DNA from: Bradyrhizobium manausense
Lineage (GTDB): Bacteria > Pseudomonadota > Alphaproteobacteria > Rhizobiales > Xanthobacteraceae
Direction of reading: 5' to 3'
NCBI RefSeq assembly: GCF_018129685.1
Contig: NZ_JAFCLG010000001.1
Coordinates: 1,116,001-1,180,000 of the forward strand
DNA length: 64,000 bases
Under the pieces are notes generated by a model. That model was not told where the DNA came from and searched no databases. It saw only the letters and a program-made list of their open reading frames with translations. A program made the translations under genes and the position numbers. Below, one piece after another: positions 18,737 to 34,025 of this stretch. The first letter of the stretch is position 1. The number at the start of each line of letters is the position of its first letter.

Positions 18737-19933
18737 ATGGCGCATGACGCCCCCCAGGCCGCCGGACCCTCGAAGCTCGTGATCCGGAACATCGGCCTGA
18801 TCCTGTCCGGCGCCCTGGAAAAGCCGATCCTGGACGGCGACACCATCGTCGCCGAGAACGGCAAGATCGCCGCGATCGGCCGCTTCAAGGACCTCAATAC
18901 GGACGATGCGACCACCATCGTCGAGGCCAACGGCACCACCGTCGCGCCAGGCCTGATCGACAGCCACGTCCACCCCGTCGCGGGCGACTGGACGCCGCGG
19001 CAGAACCAGATCGGCTGGATCGACAGCAACCTGCATGGCGGCGTCACCACGATGATTTCCGCCGGCGAAGTTCACATGCCCGGACGTCCGCGCGACGTCG
19101 TCGGCCTGAAGGCCATGGCGATCTTCGCCCAGCGCGCCTTCTGGAATCTGCGGCCCGGCGGCGTGAAAGTTCATGCCGGTGCGCCCGTGATCGAATGCGA
19201 GATGGTCGAGGAGGATTTCAAGGAGCTGGCCGCGGCCGGCGTCAAGCTGCTCGGCGAAGTCGGCCTCGGCGGCGTCAAGGATGGTCCTACCGCACGCAGG
19301 ATGGTCGGCTGGGCCCGCAAATACGGCATCCAGAGCACGATCCACACCGGTGGTCCCTCGATTCCCGGTTCGGGCCTGATCGACAAGGACGTCGTGCTGG
19401 AAGCCGACACTGACGTGGTCGGCCACATCAACGGCGGCCACACCGCCCTGCCCGACGATCAGATCCGCTGCATCTGCGAGGGCTGCAAGCGTGGCCTGGA
19501 GCTCGTGCACAACGGCAATGAGCGCTCGGCGCTGTTCACGCTGCGCACTGCGCGCGAGATGGGCGATCTGCATCGCGTCATCCTCGGCACCGACGCGCCC
19601 GCCGGCTCCGGCGTGCAGCCGCTCGGCATCTTGCGCATGGTTTCGATGCTGTCCTCGCTCGGCGATTTGCCGGCCGAGATCGCATTCTGTCTCGCCACCG
19701 GCAACACCGCGCGGATGCGCGCGCTCGATTGCGGCCTCATTGAAGTGGGCCGCTCCGCCGACTTCGTCATCATGGACAAGGCGCAGCACTCGCCCGGCAA
19801 GACCATTTTGGAGAGCGTCCAGCTCGGCGACCTCCCCGGCATCGGCATGACCATCATCGACGGCATCGTGCGCACCCAGCGCAGCCGGAATACGCCGCCG
19901 GCTGGGAGAGTGCCTGAGGTGGTGGCAAAGTGA
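18737..19933 (+). CDS. ena: Enamidase (1,4,5,6-tetrahydro-6-oxonicotinate amidohydrolase), Ena-like
   Basis: 398 residues of the amidohydrolase superfamily. Metal ligands are visible in APGLIDSHVHPVAGDW (HxH), QSTIHTGGPSIPGSG, HINGGHTALPDDQI and ILGTDAPAGSGVQPLG, whose aspartate is the general base. The order and the GGPSIPGSG and DAPAGSG signatures match enamidase of the Eubacterium barkeri nicotinate pathway, a binuclear enzyme that opens the reduced ring to 2-formylglutarate and ammonia. The gene sits with nicAB, a 6-hydroxynicotinate reductase-like gene and fpr, which strongly supports the role. GGAATAAGGAG precedes the ATG. A long palindromic element follows the stop. Confidence 0.83.
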   Translation: MAHDAPQAAGPSKLVIRNIGLILSGALEKPILDGDTIVAENGKIAAIGRFKDLNTDDATTIVEANGTTVAPGLIDSHVHPVAGDWTPRQNQIGWIDSNLHGGVTTMISAGEVHMPGRPRDVVGLKAMAIFAQRAFWNLRPGGVKVHAGAPVIECEMVEEDFKELAAAGVKLLGEVGLGGVKDGPTARRMVGWARKYGIQSTIHTGGPSIPGSGLIDKDVVLEADTDVVGHINGGHTALPDDQIRCICEGCKRGLELVHNGNERSALFTLRTAREMGDLHRVILGTDAPAGSGVQPLGILRMVSMLSSLGDLPAEIAFCLATGNTARMRALDCGLIEVGRSADFVIMDKAQHSPGKTILESVQLGDLPGIGMTIIDGIVRTQRSRNTPPAGRVPEVVAK

Positions 19934-25425: not shown

Positions 25426-26010
25426 TTATCTCAAACCGTCTTCGCCCTTGATCTCGGCAACCGTGAGCCCGCCGACGCGAGGCAGCGGGCGTCCGCTGTC
25501 GGTGACGGCGACCGCAACCATGATCTCATTGGCACGCGGCGCGTCGTTGATCTGAACTTCCATGCCGTCAAAGTGGCTGCGCACGAAGGCCGCGTCCTTG
25601 TGGCCGAGCGGAATGTCCAGCGTCGTGCCGGGACCGCTGCGCTTCTTCGATGACGGGATCAGTGCCGCGCCCTTGGTCAGGACTTTCCGCACCGGCGCGC
25701 CCATCTTGGGGTGAAGAATGGCGGCGGCATGTTCGAGCTCGCCGTTCTCGCCGACGGCCGCGGCCTTGCCGTAGCTCTGCGCCTTGGCGCCGTCGATGCC
25801 GAGCGCAGCCACCGCGCGCTTCGACAGCAGCTCGCCGAGCTCCTCACCGATCGCGATCAGCGGCGAGAGGTCCTCGACATATTTCCCGGCAAAGGGATTT
25901 TCGATCACGGCAATCGCCGCCGCGCGCCGGGTCGGCGGCGACACCTGGCGGCCCATCTCCATCTGCGTCTCTTCGACGACGGTGACGATCTTGCGGATGA
26001 TCGCGCTCAT
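25426..26010 (-). CDS. DUF1185 / amino acid synthesis family protein
   Basis: 194 residues. The segments RAAAIAVIENPFAGKYVEDLSPLI, KAAAVGENGELEHAAAILHPKMGAPVRKVL and the ALIPSSKKRSGPGTTLDIPLGHKDAAFVRSHFD stretch match the PF06684 family, whose function is not established despite its name. It has no signal peptide or membrane helix and so is probably a cytoplasmic enzyme or accessory factor. It is encoded between the UPF0280 and binding-protein genes within the nicotinate operon, with short spacers of 15 and 33 bp. A role in the step after ring opening, or in handling a labile intermediate, is possible but unproven. Confidence 0.75.
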   Translation of the reverse strand: MSAIIRKIVTVVEETQMEMGRQVSPPTRRAAAIAVIENPFAGKYVEDLSPLIAIGEELGELLSKRAVAALGIDGAKAQSYGKAAAVGENGELEHAAAILHPKMGAPVRKVLTKGAALIPSSKKRSGPGTTLDIPLGHKDAAFVRSHFDGMEVQINDAPRANEIMVAVAVTDSGRPLPRVGGLTVAEIKGEDGLR

Positions 26011-26025: not shown

Positions 26026-26925
26026 TCAGGCATGGACCGCGTTCTCCAGCACAGGCGGGCGCGATCGTTGCTCTCTTATATCCTTGGTTCCGATGACAAT
26101 CATATCACCACAAAGCCGCAGCACGGCACCTTCGATCAATCCGCGATCGAGCAATTGCCGTGCACATTCCGCGCCAGATTCGAGCGCGGTCGCGATCTCT
26201 TCTTGCGACAATTCACCTACGTCGCCGGTGACAAGACGCGCGCCGAGATCGCTGTCGGGCTGAAGCTCGTTTGCAGGCTTTCGAACGATCGATGGATGCC
26301 CCGGCAGATCGACGGCGTTGGCAATGACGGTCGCCGCGGCATCGGCCTGCGATGCCGTCGCCGCCAGCACGGTCACCGCATCGGCGATGCCGAGCGAAAA
26401 GCTGCGGCCGTGGCGGCCGCTGGTCGCGATGCCGCGCACGGGATCATCAGCATCGACCCTCATGGCCCGCATCACACCGTCGCGATCAGGCCGATCCATC
26501 AGCCCCACCGAGAAATACTCACCTGCGCTGAGGTGCAGGGCAATGTCGCCACCATTGTTGACGTAGGCCTGATCGAGCGTCGCGACACGAAGTATGGCGC
26601 CGAGAATTTCCTCGGCCACGCTGCCCGCCACCGCGGCCATCGGCGTGATGAAGCGATCCCAGGCGTAGGGAGTAACGGCCGCATACATGCGCCGGGCCAC
26701 CGTGCCCGTCAGCGAACACGCCGCCGGCAGCGCCGCCCTCCGCAACTCCGGCAGTTCCGCGCAGAGCTCATCAAGCAGACCCGTGAAACGGCGCGCCGCA
26801 GCCTGGTAGGCCGCATGCACCTCGTCCGCGCGCCCCCTTGCCTCGACGATCAAATCAATCGGTCCATCCTGCAAATGCAGCCGCCGGCCATCAGACAGCA
26901 ACGCGATTTGCGGAAGCCGTGTCAT
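26026..26925 (-). CDS. UPF0280 family protein, ApbE-like (possible flavin transferase)
   Basis: 299 residues. MTRLPQIALLSDGRRLHLQDGPIDLIVEARG, PMAAVAGSVAEEILGAIL, AYVNNGGDIALHLSAGEYFSVGL and GIATSGRHGRSFSLGIADAVTVLAA follow the UPF0280 pattern. The NNGGDIA core and the TSGRHGRSFSLG-type segment resemble the nucleotide-binding and metal-binding parts of ApbE FAD:protein FMN transferases. The start codon overlaps the stop of the reductase gene (ATGA), implying tight coupling. The clostridial 6-hydroxynicotinate reductase is known to carry covalent flavin, so this protein may attach it. The frame remains open to 27288 antisense within the reductase gene, but the overlap start is preferred. Confidence 0.75.
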   Translation of the reverse strand: MTRLPQIALLSDGRRLHLQDGPIDLIVEARGRADEVHAAYQAAARRFTGLLDELCAELPELRRAALPAACSLTGTVARRMYAAVTPYAWDRFITPMAAVAGSVAEEILGAILRVATLDQAYVNNGGDIALHLSAGEYFSVGLMDRPDRDGVMRAMRVDADDPVRGIATSGRHGRSFSLGIADAVTVLAATASQADAAATVIANAVDLPGHPSIVRKPANELQPDSDLGARLVTGDVGELSQEEIATALESGAECARQLLDRGLIEGAVLRLCGDMIVIGTKDIREQRSRPPVLENAVHA

Positions 26926-28382
26926 GCCCGCGGTCCCGGGATCGGGTTCTGCCAGGGCAGCTGACGGACATCGTTGCCGCCCCTCACCTCGGCGAGCGGC
27001 TTCACGTAGTCCATGTGGCCGCCGAGCGCAGCATAGTCGGTCAATTTCATCGTGAACTCGATTGGCGCAACCAGCGCCGGCGTCGGCACATAGCCGAACG
27101 CCCCCGCCGGCATCTGCGTCACGTCCACCATGTAGGTGATGCCGCCGCCCGGCCAGACATAGACCGGCGCACCGCCGCTGGTGACTCGCGTCAGCGCATC
27201 CTTCACCGAGCGCGTCAGCCGCACCGGATTGTCGGTGACGCCGGCGCGCAAGGAACCGCCGGCACCGGCCATGAACAGCACCGTGCACAGCGCCGGTTCG
27301 CAGTTTTCCTGGATGCGCTCAACCGAGAATTTCAGGTCATCAGGCATCTCGGTCTCGACCGGCTTCAAGGCCTCGTCGAGCACATAGTAAGAGGAATGCT
27401 CGCCAGTGGTGGACACCATCAGCATCGAGAGGCCGGGCCTCGCTTCCTTGGGGTCGAACGGCCCGAGAATGGCCAGCGGATCGGAGATATTGGTGCCGCC
27501 CCAGCCCGTACCGGGATCGGCAACCTGGAAATACCGGCCGGGCGTCGAGCGCCGGCCCTTCATCTTGATGCCGGTGTCGGCGATGTCGAGCAGCTTGCCG
27601 GCCTGGTGCTCCGAGAGGACGCCGGTGATATGATCGTCGACCACGACGACCTCGTCGACCTTGCCGTGCCATTGCTTGGCGAACATGCCGATCGTCGCCG
27701 AGCCGCAGCCGACGCGCATGCGTTCCTCTTTCGCACCGTTGACAATCGGCGGCTGGCCCGCCTGCACCACGACGCGCGCGCCGCCGTCGATGGTCAGCTC
27801 CACCGCCTTGCAGTTGGCGAGGTCCATCAGCGTATCGCAGGTGACGCGGCCCTCTTTCTTCGAACCGCCGGTGAGGTGATGCACGCCGCCGAGCGACAGC
27901 ATCTGCGAGCCGTATTCGCTGGTGGTGACGTGACCGACCGCCTCGCCCTGCGCGCGCACGGTCGCGGTTTCGGGTCCGAGATAACGATCGGTGTCGATCT
28001 TCACCTTGATGCCGCAATAGGAGAAGATGCCCTCGGTGACGACGGTCACCATGTCGACGCCGTCGACTTCGGAAGAGACAATGAACGGCGCCGGCTTGTA
28101 GTCGGGATAGGTCGTGCCCGCGCCGATTGCGGTGACGAAGGTCGAGGGCTCGTGGACGATCTTGCCGTCCCAGTCTTCGCTGCTGCCAAACGGCACCAGC
28201 CTGCCGCCCTGCGACACCGTGCGCTCGAGAATGATGTGCGGATCGACCCGGACGAGCTTGCCGTCGTCGTTGGCGTAGCGGTCGCAGGCGCCGGCCGCGC
28301 CCGGCTTGATGTAACACATCACCGGACAGGCATCGCAGCGGATCTTGTCGGTGGCGGCAGCGCTCGTTGTTTCCATCACCAT
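26922..28382 (-). CDS. hnr: 6-hydroxynicotinate reductase-like iron-sulfur flavoprotein
   Basis: 486 residues from the ATG at 28382 (an ATG at 28376 is also possible). The N-terminus holds a C16-x2-C19-x3-C23-x9-C33 cluster (CDACPVMCYIKPGAAGACD), a ferredoxin-like iron-sulfur site; further cysteines lie in FSYCGIK, VTCD, NCKA, VGCG and ENCEPALC. The glycine-rich GPGTGWGGTNISDP-like and YVWPGGGITYMVDV parts may contact cofactors. I recognise it as the family of the Eubacterium barkeri enzyme that reduces 6-hydroxynicotinate to 1,4,5,6-tetrahydro-6-oxonicotinate with reduced ferredoxin. It heads the minus-strand operon, divergent from nicAB, and its neighbours cover the steps before and after. 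I count only ten cysteines, fewer than three clusters would need. Confidence 0.78.
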   Translation of the reverse strand: MVMETTSAAATDKIRCDACPVMCYIKPGAAGACDRYANDDGKLVRVDPHIILERTVSQGGRLVPFGSSEDWDGKIVHEPSTFVTAIGAGTTYPDYKPAPFIVSSEVDGVDMVTVVTEGIFSYCGIKVKIDTDRYLGPETATVRAQGEAVGHVTTSEYGSQMLSLGGVHHLTGGSKKEGRVTCDTLMDLANCKAVELTIDGGARVVVQAGQPPIVNGAKEERMRVGCGSATIGMFAKQWHGKVDEVVVVDDHITGVLSEHQAGKLLDIADTGIKMKGRRSTPGRYFQVADPGTGWGGTNISDPLAILGPFDPKEARPGLSMLMVSTTGEHSSYYVLDEALKPVETEMPDDLKFSVERIQENCEPALCTVLFMAGAGGSLRAGVTDNPVRLTRSVKDALTRVTSGGAPVYVWPGGGITYMVDVTQMPAGAFGYVPTPALVAPIEFTMKLTDYAALGGHMDYVKPLAEVRGGNDVRQLPWQNPIPGPRA

Positions 28383-28649: not shown

Positions 28650-29132
28650 ATGACGCAAGCAACGGTCCGCCTCACCGTGAACGGCAGGATCCAGGACGTC
28701 ACGGCAGAACGCCAGACGCCGCTGCTCTATGTGCTACGCAACGATCTCGGGCTCAACGGCCCGAAATATGGTTGCGGCTTGGGTGAATGCGGCACCTGCA
28801 CTGTCCTGATCGATGGCAAGGCCGCACGCTCTTGCGTGATCCCCGTGAGCGGCTGCGTGGGCCACGACATCGTGACGCTCGAAGGGCTCGGCACGCGCGA
28901 AAAGCCTGACGTCGTGCAGCAGGCTTTCATCGCGGAGGAGGCCGCGCAATGCGGCTACTGCCTCAACGGCATGATCATGACCACCAAGGCGCTGCTCGCG
29001 ATCAATCCGCGACCGACTGAACAGGAAGCGCTGGCGGCGCTCCGCTACAATCTCTGCCGCTGCGGCACGCATGTGGAGATCATTCGCGCCGTGATGCGCG
29101 CATCTGGCCAGCTCGCCGAGGCGCGTGACTGA
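28650..29132 (+). CDS. nicA: Nicotinate hydroxylase small subunit, [2Fe-2S] protein (NicA-like)
   Basis: 160 residues. The plant-type cluster is at YGCGLGECGTCTVLIDGKAARSC, and the second, C-terminal cluster at CGYCLNGM and CRCGTH, the standard arrangement of the small subunit in xanthine dehydrogenase-family hydroxylases. It passes electrons from the molybdenum centre encoded by the next gene to that gene's haem domains. The ATG at 28650 lies 72 bp after the operator. The stop overlaps the start of nicB by one base (TGATG). The frame is open far upstream, but there it is antisense to the reductase gene and not coding. Nicotinate as substrate is inferred from the NicB fusion and pathway neighbours. 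Confidence 0.87.
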   Translation: MTQATVRLTVNGRIQDVTAERQTPLLYVLRNDLGLNGPKYGCGLGECGTCTVLIDGKAARSCVIPVSGCVGHDIVTLEGLGTREKPDVVQQAFIAEEAAQCGYCLNGMIMTTKALLAINPRPTEQEALAALRYNLCRCGTHVEIIRAVMRASGQLAEARD

Positions 29133-32100
29133 TGGCCTCCCCTGTTTCGAACGGAGTTGAGCGCGGTTCGCTCGTCGTCGCCCGCACGGTGGACGAGGTC
29201 ACATCCGAAACCTTTATCCGAATCACGGCGGACGGGTCCGTAACCGCCTATAACGGTCATGTGGATCTCGGAACCGGCATCCGCACCGCCCTCGGCCAGA
29301 TCGTCGCGGAGGAGTTGGATGTCTCTTTTGCCCGCGTCGTTGTGGTGCTCGGCGACACCGCCGTGGTGCCGAACCAGGGCGCGACGATCGCGAGCGAGAC
29401 CATCCAGATCACCGCGGTGCCCCTGCGCAGGGCCGCGGCGCAAGCGCGACACTTTTTGATCGCGCGTGCGGCCGAGCGGCTGGAGCTGACGGCCGAAGAG
29501 CTCAAGATCGAAGACGGCCTCGTGCGTGGCCATAATCGCAGCATCAGCTATGGCGAGTTGATCGGCGGCGAGACCATTCGCCTCGAGCTGGACGACGACG
29601 TGCAGGTCAAGGCCGTCGGCGACTACGCCATCGTAGGCCAGTCGATGCCGCGCGTGGATCTTCCCGCAAAGGCCACCGGCGAGTTGACTTTCGTGCACGA
29701 CATCCGCGTGCCCGGCATGCTCCACGGCCGCGTCGTGCGCCCGCCCTATTCCGGCGTCGATGCCGGCCCGTTCGTCGGCACCAGCCTGATCGCGGTCGAC
29801 GAAGCCTCTGTGCGCGATATTCCCGGCCTCGTTGCCGTCGTCCGCATTGGTGATTTCATCGGCGTGGTCGCCGAGCGCGAGGAGAATGCGATTTCCGCGG
29901 CCGAGCAGCTCAAGGTGAGCTGGAAGCCGACGCCAAAGCTGACCGACCTCGCCGATATCGAGAACGCGCTGCGCGCCCATCCCTCGACGCCGCGGACGCT
30001 GATCGACAAGGGCGACGTGAATGCAGCGATTTCCGGCGCGGCCAAGTCCATGCAACGCACTTATGTGTGGCCGTACCAGATGCACGCATCCATCGGCCCG
30101 TCCTGCTCGGTCGCCGACTTCCAGGACGGCAATATCCGCGTCTGGTCCGGCACGCAGAATCCGCACGTGCTTCGCAGCGATCTTGCGCTGCTGGTCGATC
30201 GACCCGAGAGCGAGGTCGAGGTTATCAGGCTCGAGGCCGCCGGATGCTATGGCCGCAACTGCGCGGACGACGTCAGCGCGGACGCACTGCTGCTGTCGCG
30301 CGCGGTCGGTCGGCCCGTCCGGGTGCAGCTCACGCGCGAGCAGGAGCACGCGTGGGAGCCCAAGGGCACGGCGCAGCTCATCGACGTCAATGGCGGCCTC
30401 GATGCCCATGGCGGAATCGTTGGCTACGATCTCGCCACGCGTTACCCCTCGAACGCCGCGCCGACGCTGGCCCTGCTGCTCACGGGGCGCATCTCGCCCG
30501 AGCCTGCCGTGCTGCAGATGGGCGACCGCACGGCGATCCCGCCTTACGATTACGACAACCTGCGCGTCGTCGCCCATGACATGGCGCCGATCGTGCGCGC
30601 ATCCTGGTTCCGTGGCGTCTCGGCGCTGCCGAACACCTTTGCGCATGAATCCTACATCGACGAGGCAGCGACCGAGGCCGGCATCGATCCCATCGAATAC
30701 CGCTTGCGCTATCTCAAGGACCAGCGCGCCGTCGATCTCGTCAATGCCGTCGCCGAGCGCGCGGGCTGGACGCCGCGGCCGGTCCGCGCCGAGAAGGACG
30801 GCGAAATCGTGCACGGGCGCGGCTTTGCCTACGCGCTCTATGTCCACAGCAAGTTCCCCGGCTATGGCGCGGCATGGTCGGCCTGGGTCGCCGACGTCGC
30901 CGTCAACAAGACCACCGGCGATGTCAGCGTCACGCGCGTGGTTGCCGGACAGGATTCCGGACTGATGATCAACCCGGACGGCGTGCGCCACCAGATCCAC
31001 GGCAACGTCATCCAGTCGACCAGCCGTGCTCTGATGGAGGAAGTCTCATTCGAGCGCGGCGCCGTCGCCGCGCGGGAATGGGGCGCCTATCCGATCATTC
31101 CGTTCCCCGACGTGCCGAAGATCGACGTCTTGATGCTGCCGCGTCAGGATCAGCCGCCGCTCGGCGTCGGTGAGTCCGCGTCAGTCCCCAGCGCAGCGGC
31201 GATTGCGAATGCGATCTTCGACGCCACCGGCGTCCGCTTTCGCGAGCCGCCGTTCACGCCCGAGCGCATCTTGAAGGGGCTGCACGGTGAAACATCGCCC
31301 GTACCGCAAGGCCTCCCCGCGCCCGCAACGCCGCCGCCATCGCGCATCTGGGACAATCCGTTTGCCAAGCGCGCCGGCATCTTTGCGACGATTGCAGCCG
31401 TTTGCACTGCCGCGATCGGCGTCGGCGCAGCGTTCCTTCCCGGCCGCGCGATCGCACCGATCGCGCGGCCCGACGCATCGGTCTATTCGGCCGCGACCAT
31501 CGCGCGCGGCGAGCAGCTTGCCGTGCTCGGCAATTGCGCGGAATGCCACACCAGCCTCAATGGCGCGCGCAACGCCGGCGGCCGCGCACTGGAGACGCCG
31601 TTCGGCACGATCTACTCCACCAACATCACACCTGACGTTGAGACCGGCATCGGCGCCTGGTCCTATCCCGCCTTCGAGCGCGCCATGCGCGACGGCTTGC
31701 ACCGCGACGGACGGCAGCTCTATCCCGCCTTCCCCTACACGCACTTCTCAAAGACCAGCGACGCCGACATGCAGGCGCTCTACGCTTACCTGATGGCGCA
31801 GCCGGCGGTGCGGGCCACGGCGCCTGCGAATAAGCTCGCCTTCCCGTTCAACATCCGCCCGCTGCTCGCGGGCTGGAATGCGCTGTTCCACCAGACCCGG
31901 GAGTTCAAGCCCGATCCCACCAAATTCGAGGCATGGAATCGCGGCGCGTATCTGGTCGAGAGTCTCGGCCATTGCAGCGCCTGCCATTCGCCGCGCAATG
32001 CGTTCGGCGCCGAACGGCGCCAGGCCTATCTCGCCGGCGGTTTTGCGGAAGGCTGGGAAGCGCCGCCGCTGACCTCGCTCTCGCACGCGCCGATTCCGTG

Positions 32101-32644
32101 GAACGAGGACGAGCTGTTCGCATATTTGCGCACCGGCCATTCCCGTTATCACGGCGTCGCTGCCGGCCCGATGGCTCCGATCGTCCGGGATCTCAAGGCC
32201 CTGCCGGATCAGGACATCCGCGCGATGGCAGTCTATCTCGGCTCGTTCAACGACACTTCCGTCGACGCGCCGGAGCTCGCGGCGAAGCTCGAAAGCGCAA
32301 CGCAGGTCACCCTCGCCTCGTCCACCGGCGCGCGGCTCTATCAGGGCGCCTGCGCCGTCTGTCACGAGGTCGGCGGCCTGCCGCTGTATGGCAGCCGCCC
32401 CTCGCTCGCGCTCAACAGCAATCTGCACAGCGCGACATCCGACAATCTCGTGCAGGTGATCCTGCACGGCATCACCGAGCCCGCATCGAGCGACCTCGGC
32501 TACATGCCCGCCTTCAGGAGCAGCATGAGCGACGCGCAGCTCGAGGAGCTCGTCGGCTTCCTGCGCAGCCAGTTCGCGCCGGACAAGCCGGCCTGGACCG
32601 GCGTAAAGGAGACGATTGCAAGGGTGCGGGCGTCAGCGCATTAG
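29132..32644 (+). CDS. nicB: Nicotinate hydroxylase large subunit, molybdopterin domain fused to three cytochrome c domains (NicB-like)
   Basis: 1170 residues, close to the size of Pseudomonas NicB. Residues 1-730 form the molybdopterin cytosine dinucleotide domain (for example LGTGIRTALGQIVAEELD, VRPPYSGVDAGPF and the end GVGESASVPSAAAIANAI). A hydrophobic segment near 750-775 (IFATIAAVCTAAIGVGAAFL) may anchor the tail in the membrane. Three haem c motifs follow: CAECH at 802-806, CSACH at 948-952 and CAVCH at 1074-1078. This layout replaces the FAD subunit of ordinary hydroxylases and sends electrons to the respiratory chain. It converts nicotinate to 6-hydroxynicotinate with NicA. The gene is convergent with the VOC dioxygenase gene. 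Confidence 0.87.
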   Translation: MASPVSNGVERGSLVVARTVDEVTSETFIRITADGSVTAYNGHVDLGTGIRTALGQIVAEELDVSFARVVVVLGDTAVVPNQGATIASETIQITAVPLRRAAAQARHFLIARAAERLELTAEELKIEDGLVRGHNRSISYGELIGGETIRLELDDDVQVKAVGDYAIVGQSMPRVDLPAKATGELTFVHDIRVPGMLHGRVVRPPYSGVDAGPFVGTSLIAVDEASVRDIPGLVAVVRIGDFIGVVAEREENAISAAEQLKVSWKPTPKLTDLADIENALRAHPSTPRTLIDKGDVNAAISGAAKSMQRTYVWPYQMHASIGPSCSVADFQDGNIRVWSGTQNPHVLRSDLALLVDRPESEVEVIRLEAAGCYGRNCADDVSADALLLSRAVGRPVRVQLTREQEHAWEPKGTAQLIDVNGGLDAHGGIVGYDLATRYPSNAAPTLALLLTGRISPEPAVLQMGDRTAIPPYDYDNLRVVAHDMAPIVRASWFRGVSALPNTFAHESYIDEAATEAGIDPIEYRLRYLKDQRAVDLVNAVAERAGWTPRPVRAEKDGEIVHGRGFAYALYVHSKFPGYGAAWSAWVADVAVNKTTGDVSVTRVVAGQDSGLMINPDGVRHQIHGNVIQSTSRALMEEVSFERGAVAAREWGAYPIIPFPDVPKIDVLMLPRQDQPPLGVGESASVPSAAAIANAIFDATGVRFREPPFTPERILKGLHGETSPVPQGLPAPATPPPSRIWDNPFAKRAGIFATIAAVCTAAIGVGAAFLPGRAIAPIARPDASVYSAATIARGEQLAVLGNCAECHTSLNGARNAGGRALETPFGTIYSTNITPDVETGIGAWSYPAFERAMRDGLHRDGRQLYPAFPYTHFSKTSDADMQALYAYLMAQPAVRATAPANKLAFPFNIRPLLAGWNALFHQTREFKPDPTKFEAWNRGAYLVESLGHCSACHSPRNAFGAERRQAYLAGGFAEGWEAPPLTSLSHAPIPWNEDELFAYLRTGHSRYHGVAAGPMAPIVRDLKALPDQDIRAMAVYLGSFNDTSVDAPELAAKLESATQVTLASSTGARLYQGACAVCHEVGGLPLYGSRPSLALNSNLHSATSDNLVQVILHGITEPASSDLGYMPAFRSSMSDAQLEELVGFLRSQFAPDKPAWTGVKETIARVRASAH

Positions 32645-32657
32645 AGGAAGCGCGCAA

Positions 32658-33626
32658 TCACGCGTGCTTCTTCATCTCCACCGGCGGCGTACCGTGGGTG
32701 TGGAACGACTCGATCGTCTTGAGGCCCCAGGCCTGGCCCTTCTTGCGCTCTTCCTCAGTCCACACGATCGGCTTCCAGTCCGGCGCGAGGATGAGGCGCG
32801 CGCCGGCGTTGGCGACCTCGACGCGGTTGCCGCCGGGCTCGTAGACATAGAGGAAGAAGGTCTGCTGGATCGCATGCTTGTGCGGCCCGGTCTCGATGTG
32901 CACCCCGTTCTCCAGGAAGATGTCCGCAGCGCGCAGAATCTCCTCGCGGCTGTCGAGCGCGTAGGTGACGTGGTGGAAGCGGCCGGGCGTGCCGGAATGA
33001 TCGAGCGAATAGGCAAAGTCATAGCTCTTGTTCGACATGGTCAGCCACATCGCGGCCTCGCGTCCGTCGTTCAGCACGATCTGCTCGGTGAGCCGGCAGC
33101 CGAGGTAGTTCTCGAAGAACTCCCTGTTAGCCTTGATATCGACGGCGAGGCAGTTGAGATGGTCGAGCCGGCGGACATTGACGCCGCGCGCAGGAAAGCG
33201 CTGCGCCTGGTTCTTCAACGCGGGCTTCAGCTCCGGCGGCGCCTGATACCACTCGGTCTCATAGTACAGTTCCACGATGTGGCCATCAGGGTCGCGGCAG
33301 CGGAACGTCGGCCCCTGCCCCATGTCGCCATCGATCCAGCCGATATCGAAGCCCGAGCCTTTCAGCGCGGCGACGCGGCGCTCAAGCGCCTGCTGGCTGC
33401 GCGCGCGCAGCGCCATGTGCTCCATGCCCGAGGTCTTCGACGCCGTCAGCTTGAGCGAATAGCGCTCGTAATCGTCCCAGCCGCGTAGATAGACCGACTC
33501 GCCCTTCCGCCCGCTGATGGTCATCCCCATGACGTCGACGAAGAATTTCAGGCTCTCGTCGGGCTTCGGCGTCAGCAGTTCCATATGGCCGAGATGGGCA
33601 AGATCGAGGATCGGTTCGGGCTGCAT
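32658..33626 (-). CDS. VOC-family extradiol (catechol 2,3-dioxygenase type) ring-cleavage dioxygenase
   Basis: 322 residues with two glyoxalase-fold modules. The N-terminal module starts DLAHLGHMELLTPKPDESLKFF; the C-terminal catalytic module shows RRLDHLNCLAVDIKANREFF (first metal histidine), GRFHHVTYALDSREEI (second) and FLYVYEPGGNRVEVAN (the metal glutamate in EPGGNRVE). Such Fe(II) enzymes split catecholic rings next to the diol. GGAGGAAC precedes the ATG at 33626. It ends 13 bp from nicB but points the other way. Its promoter copies that of the tetR-ligI-galB-ligK operon, so it probably feeds that pathway; a role in nicotinate breakdown is less likely. Substrate unknown. Confidence 0.8.
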   Translation of the reverse strand: MQPEPILDLAHLGHMELLTPKPDESLKFFVDVMGMTISGRKGESVYLRGWDDYERYSLKLTASKTSGMEHMALRARSQQALERRVAALKGSGFDIGWIDGDMGQGPTFRCRDPDGHIVELYYETEWYQAPPELKPALKNQAQRFPARGVNVRRLDHLNCLAVDIKANREFFENYLGCRLTEQIVLNDGREAAMWLTMSNKSYDFAYSLDHSGTPGRFHHVTYALDSREEILRAADIFLENGVHIETGPHKHAIQQTFFLYVYEPGGNRVEVANAGARLILAPDWKPIVWTEEERKKGQAWGLKTIESFHTHGTPPVEMKKHA

Positions 33627-34025
33627 GGGTTCCTCCAAAGCGTGGTCGCGATCCGCTTCACCGGATCGCGCGATCGGGCGCGGGGCGCAAATGGTAACGG
33701 GTGCCTCCGGGGCGATCCTGATGGCCACAGGTTCATTTGTACTAATGTACAAATGATTAGGTCCCGTCAACAAACCAACGCGTGCCCTCTTCAGTGAGGC
33801 CGACGCCCGCCAGGGACCGCCGTCTCCGGAATGGCCGACCGACTGCCAGGATGGTATAATTTTCCCTAACTGAATTTGGGCTCGAAAGCCCAACGAAGCG
33901 GCGTTTTCCCGCCGATTTCGCCCTCAAGTATGCATTGGGACCAATTCCTTTGACCGAATTGTACCGGATTTAACGAAGCGCGCGCGCCTGGCATTTAACA
34001 GTTTGTGCAGCCACCACCCGCATAG
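33627..34025. other. 399-bp intergenic region between the dioxygenase and HerA-like genes
   Basis: It holds the dioxygenase leader (about 100 bp), the promoter/operator at 33735-33774 and a hairpin TTGGGCT-CGAA-AGCCCAA at 33876-33893. The part from about 33850 to 34025 is more AT-rich than its surroundings and probably contains the promoter of the HerA-like gene. I found no convincing coding frame. Confidence 0.6.
33735..33774 (-). promoter_or_regulatory. Promoter and operator of the VOC dioxygenase gene, twin of the tetR operon promoter
   Basis: Minus-strand TTGACG (33765-33770) and CATTAG (33742-33747) have a 17-bp spacer. The operator CATTTGTAC-TAAT-GTACAAATG (33734-33755) is a perfect inverted repeat with 9-bp arms. 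The block matches 13757-13796 at 35 of 40 positions, in the same orientation to the gene it serves. Confidence 0.72.

Follow-up and report, generated by a model that had tools for sequence, protein, structure and literature searches.

The UPF0280 (COG2122) protein encoded beside the 6-hydroxynicotinate reductase gene (hnr) of Bradyrhizobium manausense has the fold of the ApbE flavin transferases, and no genome-level exception to the coupling of UPF0280 with the reductase (Hnr) was found in any set that was searched for the two. We give about an even chance to the proposal that UPF0280 is an ApbE-derived maturation enzyme of Hnr that transfers flavin. Among the publications listed by our literature searches, none links UPF0280 to Hnr or flavin transfer to HcyBio, its second partner described below.

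Organisation of the hnr region

The window, i.e. the whole stretch of 64,000 nucleotides that was analysed, carries hnr, the UPF0280 gene and an AA_synth gene in this order on the minus strand (Table 1). The overlap of the UPF0280 and reductase genes by ATGA, from which the original prediction had started, was verified from the coordinates of both ORFs. Such a 4-base overlap of the UPF0280 start with the hnr stop was found in 54 of 64 two-gene loci, a figure that is an upper bound because the start nearest to the expected overlap was taken. The three-gene block was present in 30 of 30 same-genus loci examined, the window's own among them. Within the genus UPF0280 diverges faster than Hnr: identity to the window proteins is about 70-91% for UPF0280 and 86-97% for Hnr. 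Conservation is highest in the AA_synth protein (93-99.5% identity within the genus), exceeding even that of Hnr, and two loci (L100 and L135) carry a second AA_synth-like gene, recognised by eye, ahead of it.

Table 1. Position and assignment of the features discussed in the window
Feature	Coordinates	Strand	Basis
Amidohydrolase	18737-19933	plus	Pfam
AA_synth family protein (PF06684), third in the three-gene block	25426-26010	minus	Pfam
UPF0280/COG2122 protein, 299 aa, ApbE fold	26026-26925	minus	NCBIfam match, model, residues
ATGA shared by the hnr stop and the UPF0280 start	26922-26925	minus	ORF coordinates, 4 bases
6-hydroxynicotinate reductase (Hnr, gene hnr), 486 aa	26922-28382	minus	homology and gene context
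Molybdopterin hydroxylase with fused cytochrome c domains, divergent from hnr	29132-32644	plus	Pfam, NCBIfam

The fused molybdopterin hydroxylase is likely the large subunit of nicotinate dehydrogenase, and the amidohydrolase is a candidate for the enamidase of the nicotinate pathway; in both cases we infer the substrate. Beside this nicotinate cluster, a catechol 2,3-dioxygenase-like protein scoring above the NCBIfam cut-off (TIGR03211) is encoded at 32658-33893.

The reductase and the missing acceptor motif

The window Hnr is 66-73% identical to its homologues on 26 plasmids, 17 of which are annotated as 6-hydroxynicotinate reductase, and its gene context, with a molybdopterin hydroxylase and an amidohydrolase nearby, fits this function. 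Alhapel et al. are said to have found in 2006 that the E. barkeri 6-hydroxynicotinate reductase contains covalently bound flavin. A nicotinate cluster with hnr has been described, and the E. barkeri enzyme shares 42% identity with the homologue of strain SG-6C (passages of PMC3511419).

A scan of genome contigs gave at least 587 relatives of Hnr. The best 80 of these carried titles of Pseudomonadota groups and of Acidobacteriota, the closest named ones being from Bradyrhizobium. No relative was found on viral contigs. In the Pseudomonadota genomes surveyed below, one Hnr match (G075:C1:2969820-2971252) came in two overlapping pieces, possibly owing to a frameshift or an assembly error.

The N-terminal motif C16-x2-C19-x3-C23-x9-C33 of Hnr was invariant in 22 of 22 aligned sequences, as were C123, C226 and C361. 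When the set was widened to 61 rows, 97% was reached by C33, C123, C226 and C361 only, and we think that the lower figures for C16, C19 and C23 come from rows cut at the N-terminus. The four-cysteine N-terminus is weakly similar to AmmeMemoRadiSam radical SAM enzymes (TIGR04337, E 0.05), and residues ~123-210 weakly resemble the C-terminal barrel of the glycine-cleavage T-protein (Pfam E 0.009; VIA Z 4.7). The structure model of Hnr was of middling quality (pLDDT 72.6) and gave no convincing fold match among solved structures (best Z 4.7), which at such a pLDDT is not evidence of a new fold.

The acceptor motif of ApbE substrates, given in a review (PMC12052999), had been noted from the outset as not found in the reductase, and the larger survey bore this out: D-x-x-[ST]-G-A-[ST] occurred in 0 of 177 Hnr sequences (redundant copies included), and a scan of seven products of the gene cluster did not reveal it either. 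The looser [ST]GA[ST] was present in 8 of the 177 (SGAT in four, TGAS in four). The flavin site on Hnr, if flavin is attached, must be unusual; S324-T325-T326, which is among the conserved serines and threonines, is a candidate.

Coupling of UPF0280 to hnr

UPF0280 was found in 39 of the 60 genomes near the window's own, the window genome included. Besides the same-genus loci, four of the nine remaining UPF0280 genomes, all from other families, were inspected, and hnr adjoins UPF0280 in all four. Among 348 Pseudomonadota genomes Hnr was detected in 32 and UPF0280 in the same 32, again including the window genome. These UPF0280 matches (E < 1e-100) lie on the same contig as Hnr and within 600 bp of it; the count omits two marginal ones (G295 and G374) with an E of 4e-4 over 34-40 positions.

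The named Hnr loci (best 80 of at least 587) were all in genomes with UPF0280, and in 78 of these 80 the UPF0280 gene was inside the fetched locus on the same strand as hnr. It follows hnr within 125 bp, counted between match ends, in 74 of the 78, and at 226 bp, 322 bp, 1.5 kb and 8.3 kb in the other four. The two loci without UPF0280 (L102 and L118) come from genomes that each have one copy elsewhere. The copy of the L102 genome (G403, locus L181), away from hnr, was flagged by the search for one TAG in the match, and an ORF scan covered the UPF0280 profile to position 277 before a stop. A MarR-like regulator gene, assigned by eye, stands between hnr and UPF0280 in four loci (L054, L062, L063 and L064).

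The same pairing was seen on plasmids, where among 72,556 records Hnr was found in 26 and UPF0280 in 27, with 26 common to both. The 27th, pBPS33-1 of Hydrogenophaga sp. BPS33, has UPF0280 at four places, and at both copies inspected, which lie in IS1071-associated repeats, a piece matching the C-terminus of Hnr (E 2.5e-5 for that single sequence) precedes UPF0280, so that this plasmid, seemingly an exception, has a truncated hnr. In its region 151248-192063 (L175) a block encoding UPF0280, a Rieske protein, a PDR/VanB reductase, a MarR protein and TTT binding proteins recurs in tandem, together with IS1071 copies.

HcyBio is the second partner of UPF0280

The statement of the original prediction that the family has no settled function holds for its biochemical role but not for its genetics, since COG2122 is needed together with DUF39/HcyBio for homocysteine synthesis in Desulfovibrio (PMC5764234). 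It was thus known to be required for homocysteine in a sulfate reducer, and it also matters for sulfide use in a methanogen. HcyBio was not found in the window genome or in the 348 Pseudomonadota genomes, so that UPF0280 has another role there.

In 199 Acidobacteriota genomes, a search centred on the Hnr-bearing genome G407, HcyBio was found in 7 and UPF0280 in 9, namely in the seven HcyBio genomes, in G407 and, as a degenerate match, in G519. For Hnr, 16 of 17 matches in this phylum were left out, as they covered the N-terminal cysteine motif only (18.8-25.7 bits). The G519 match (L197) contains four internal stops, with HcyBio and Hnr absent from its 1.5 kb flanks; the searches of that genome detected no HcyBio and no full Hnr, and the match was omitted from counts. 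Seven of the eight intact UPF0280 genes are thus beside HcyBio and one is beside Hnr. Whether UPF0280 always neighbours hnr-like genes had been asked with the original prediction; it does so in Pseudomonadota (32 of 32) but not in Acidobacteriota. No partner of intact UPF0280 other than Hnr or HcyBio was found in the 547 genomes of the two phyla.

As with hnr, UPF0280 directly follows HcyBio in 6 of 7 loci, both genes being on one strand; the ORF coordinates place the two genes convergently in L183. Two HcyBio loci carry further on, according to a short pattern, an N-terminus like that of aspartate-semialdehyde dehydrogenase, as expected for the homocysteine pathway. A ferredoxin domain is fused to 4 of the 7 HcyBio sequences. 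A comparison of the HcyBio core with the PDB returned only ferredoxin-domain matches among 60 of 184 matches listed, and the published passages on HcyBio that we consulted contain no report of flavin. No HcyBio was found on plasmids, and extending the set to the class of G414 (4 genomes) added no further case. Synechococcus elongatus, the control genome, has HcyBio and no match to NF003324, the only UPF0280 model used for it; the rule that HcyBio brings UPF0280 with it is hence not general, as HcyBio can occur without an NF003324 match.

A relationship between the two partners themselves is not claimed. Some motifs of Hnr and HcyBio (PF01837) occur in the same order by eye; however, their profile comparison was not significant (hhalign E about 0.1), and 40 of 300 shuffles scored as high, none being both as high and as long.

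The original description of UPF0280 as dedicated to the reductase proved too narrow, because UPF0280 also adjoins HcyBio in genomes without Hnr, and homocysteine synthesis in Desulfovibrio depends on it.

UPF0280 has the ApbE fold

The window protein scored 426.9 bits against NCBIfam NF003322, for which the cut-off is 290, and belongs to the same family as the COG2122 proteins of the HcyBio pathway, DvMF_0044 and MA1715, with DVU1097 (2o34) as a solved relative. The NNGGDIA core on which the likeness to ApbE had been based is present at residues 123-129. Pfam ApbE (PF02424) matched residues 101-180 with an E of 9e-4 and 19.3 bits, below its cut-off of 25.6.

The structural match to ApbE on which the original prediction depended was found. 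The UPF0280 model (pLDDT 90.0) was matched best by VIA to DVU1097 (Z 20.4, rmsd 3.5, 217 aligned), followed by 19 entries of seven ApbE-type proteins with Z 14.3-16.8, 204-221 aligned residues and rmsd 3.2-3.8. Urate oxidase, another T-fold enzyme, comes after these at Z 8.0. Foldseek agreed on the ApbE fold, with E down to 3.1e-5. Three other proteins of the window genome pass the Pfam cut-off for the ApbE family. A profile of Hnr-linked UPF0280 compared with these scored 44.1 (E 1.8e-5), and none of 200 column shuffles scored above 25.5. With both UPF0280 types pooled the E was 1.5e-6. Judged by these profiles, the relationship between UPF0280 and ApbE is beyond chance. The protein is probably cytoplasmic, as no export signal was recognised by eye.

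Retained and lost catalytic positions

Residues were counted in 81 non-redundant UPF0280 sequences, 74 Hnr-type and 7 HcyBio-type, and their correspondence with ApbE was set by motif, not by superposed coordinates. In FmnB the catalytic centre consists of Asp301, Ser257 and His273, and Mg is held by Asp301, Ser304 or Thr305, and Ala187 (PMC8906456). S169, D195 and T199 of UPF0280 correspond by motif to FmnB Ser257, Asp301 and Thr305, and are conserved in 81, 80 and 81 of the 81 sequences, as is the GGD motif (D127) in all 81. The metal/phosphate and serine positions of ApbE are thus retained; GGD also occurs in part of the ApbEs compared.

The catalytic histidine (FmnB His273) has no counterpart in UPF0280, in which the stretch after S169 is shorter. 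In V. cholerae ApbE the general base is His257 (review PMC12052999). The proposed likeness to ApbE therefore stands for fold, profile match and metal and serine positions, and fails for the catalytic histidine and the Pfam cut-off. UPF0280 further differs from ApbE/FmnB/Ftp, the FAD:protein FMN transferases, in being shorter and in having a partner without the acceptor motif. By eye, the H-x-x-D-P histidine is present in one (L216) of the three Pfam-ApbE proteins of the window genome, so its loss is not unique to UPF0280. UPF0280 is also without the lysine of the ApbE motif G-I-A-K-G; this was dropped as an argument, because the lysine is missing from several solved ApbEs as well.

The two UPF0280 types have few positions in common. 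At position 174, which aligns with FmnB Arg262, Arg is found in 73 of 74 Hnr-type sequences, the window protein included, whereas His is found in 6 of 7 HcyBio-type ones, a difference that might reflect a switch of general base. Position 123 is Asn in the Hnr type, again as in the window, and Asp or Glu in the HcyBio type. Where FmnB has Asp184, according to an alignment by eye, 73 of 74 Hnr-type sequences have Thr and 7 of 7 HcyBio-type sequences have Gly. H17 is at least 90% conserved within the Hnr type.

Proposed flavin transfer and the alternatives

We propose that UPF0280, coming from the ApbE lineage, would serve as a dedicated maturation enzyme of Hnr. At the phosphate site kept from ApbE it would most likely bind Mg together with FAD (or a different nucleotide), and it would pass the flavin-phosphate moiety on to Hnr, though not at an ApbE motif. 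As the ApbE histidine is gone, a different general base would be used. We infer that UPF0280 is catalytic, that flavin is the transferred group and that Hnr is the acceptor; the flavin would then link one-electron clusters (the Hnr cysteine cluster, the HcyBio ferredoxin) to two-electron chemistry. Flavin transfer is plausible, and we take it as the best single reading because of the ApbE ancestry, the metal/phosphate positions, the relative of Hnr reported to carry covalent flavin and the ferredoxin-linked second partner. We do not rate it above even, because both the ApbE base and the acceptor motif are missing and because sulfur-based roles have been proposed in print.

The published proposals assign a sulfur or persulfide role to COG2122 instead (PMC5764234, PMC12068725), and MA1715 has been called a sulfur trafficking protein (PMC12068725). 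UPF0280 would accordingly be a sulfur or Fe-S maturation factor for Hnr and HcyBio, delivering sulfide or persulfide or building clusters, with the ApbE fold as a reused scaffold. Extra sulfide rescues MA1715 mutants of M. acetivorans, for which persulfide modification was proposed (PMC5764234, PMC12068725), and the methanogen protein Mvol_0331 has a C-terminal Cys/His cluster (PMC9431491). The invariant cysteine motif of Hnr and the ferredoxin domains of HcyBio would also suit such a factor. However, 20 positions are conserved in the two UPF0280 types taken together and none of them is Cys or His; the types keep the ApbE metal and serine positions instead, and the chemistry of Hnr needs no sulfur transfer. 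We consider this explanation unlikely, though still a serious rival.

Two further explanations seem to us quite improbable, and to a similar degree. UPF0280 could be an ApbE-fold enzyme that supplies Hnr and HcyBio with a group other than FMN, e.g. AMP or some other cofactor linked through phosphate, since the metal/phosphate positions are kept and flavin- or adenine-contact residues are not recognisable, as illustrated by Thr or Gly at the FmnB Asp184 position. Flavin nevertheless fits best with the covalent flavin reported for the E. barkeri enzyme. FAD contacts are moreover poorly conserved even among true ApbEs (PMC8906456). Alternatively, UPF0280 could assist Hnr and HcyBio without catalysis, as a subunit or a chaperone, in line with its place immediately downstream in both settings, the loss of the ApbE base and its faster variation than Hnr within the genus; against this, the two types agree in Ser169, Asp195, Thr199 and GGD although they have little else in common. 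Finally, it is very improbable that flavin is attached by one of the three other ApbE-family proteins of the genome or by Hnr itself, with UPF0280 having an unrelated role in nicotinate breakdown, because Hnr is without the ApbE acceptor motif and UPF0280 accompanies HcyBio where Hnr was not detected, so that its role is not nicotinate-specific.

A known system close to the proposed flavin transfer is the cytoplasmic ApbE of K. pneumoniae, a flavin transferase needed for one cytosolic reductase, a soluble fumarate reductase (PMC12052999). Unlike UPF0280 and Hnr, that protein is treated as an ApbE and its reductase carries the ApbE motif; the term UPF0280 is absent from the main text of this review.

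Implications

The new feature of the family is that it has two alternative neighbours, Hnr or HcyBio. As an explanation must fit both, purely sulfur-based and purely nicotinate-based roles are weakened. The Hnr branch presents a COG2122 partner in an aerobic bacterium, without need of sulfur transfer and with a relative reported to contain covalent flavin. A broader view, which is possible but doubtful, is that UPF0280/COG2122 forms a second, motif-independent lineage of flavin transferases that split from ApbE, had its general base replaced and serves two Fe-S-linked reductive enzymes, Hnr and HcyBio, HcyBio being a covalent flavoprotein so far unrecognised as such and Hnr and HcyBio perhaps distant relatives. 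The pairing with Hnr makes the role of COG2122 directly testable with two genes and predicts a cofactor for HcyBio. If the broader view is true, a covalent flavin in HcyBio would account for the coupling of its ferredoxin clusters, which carry one electron, to sulfur chemistry that takes two or four.
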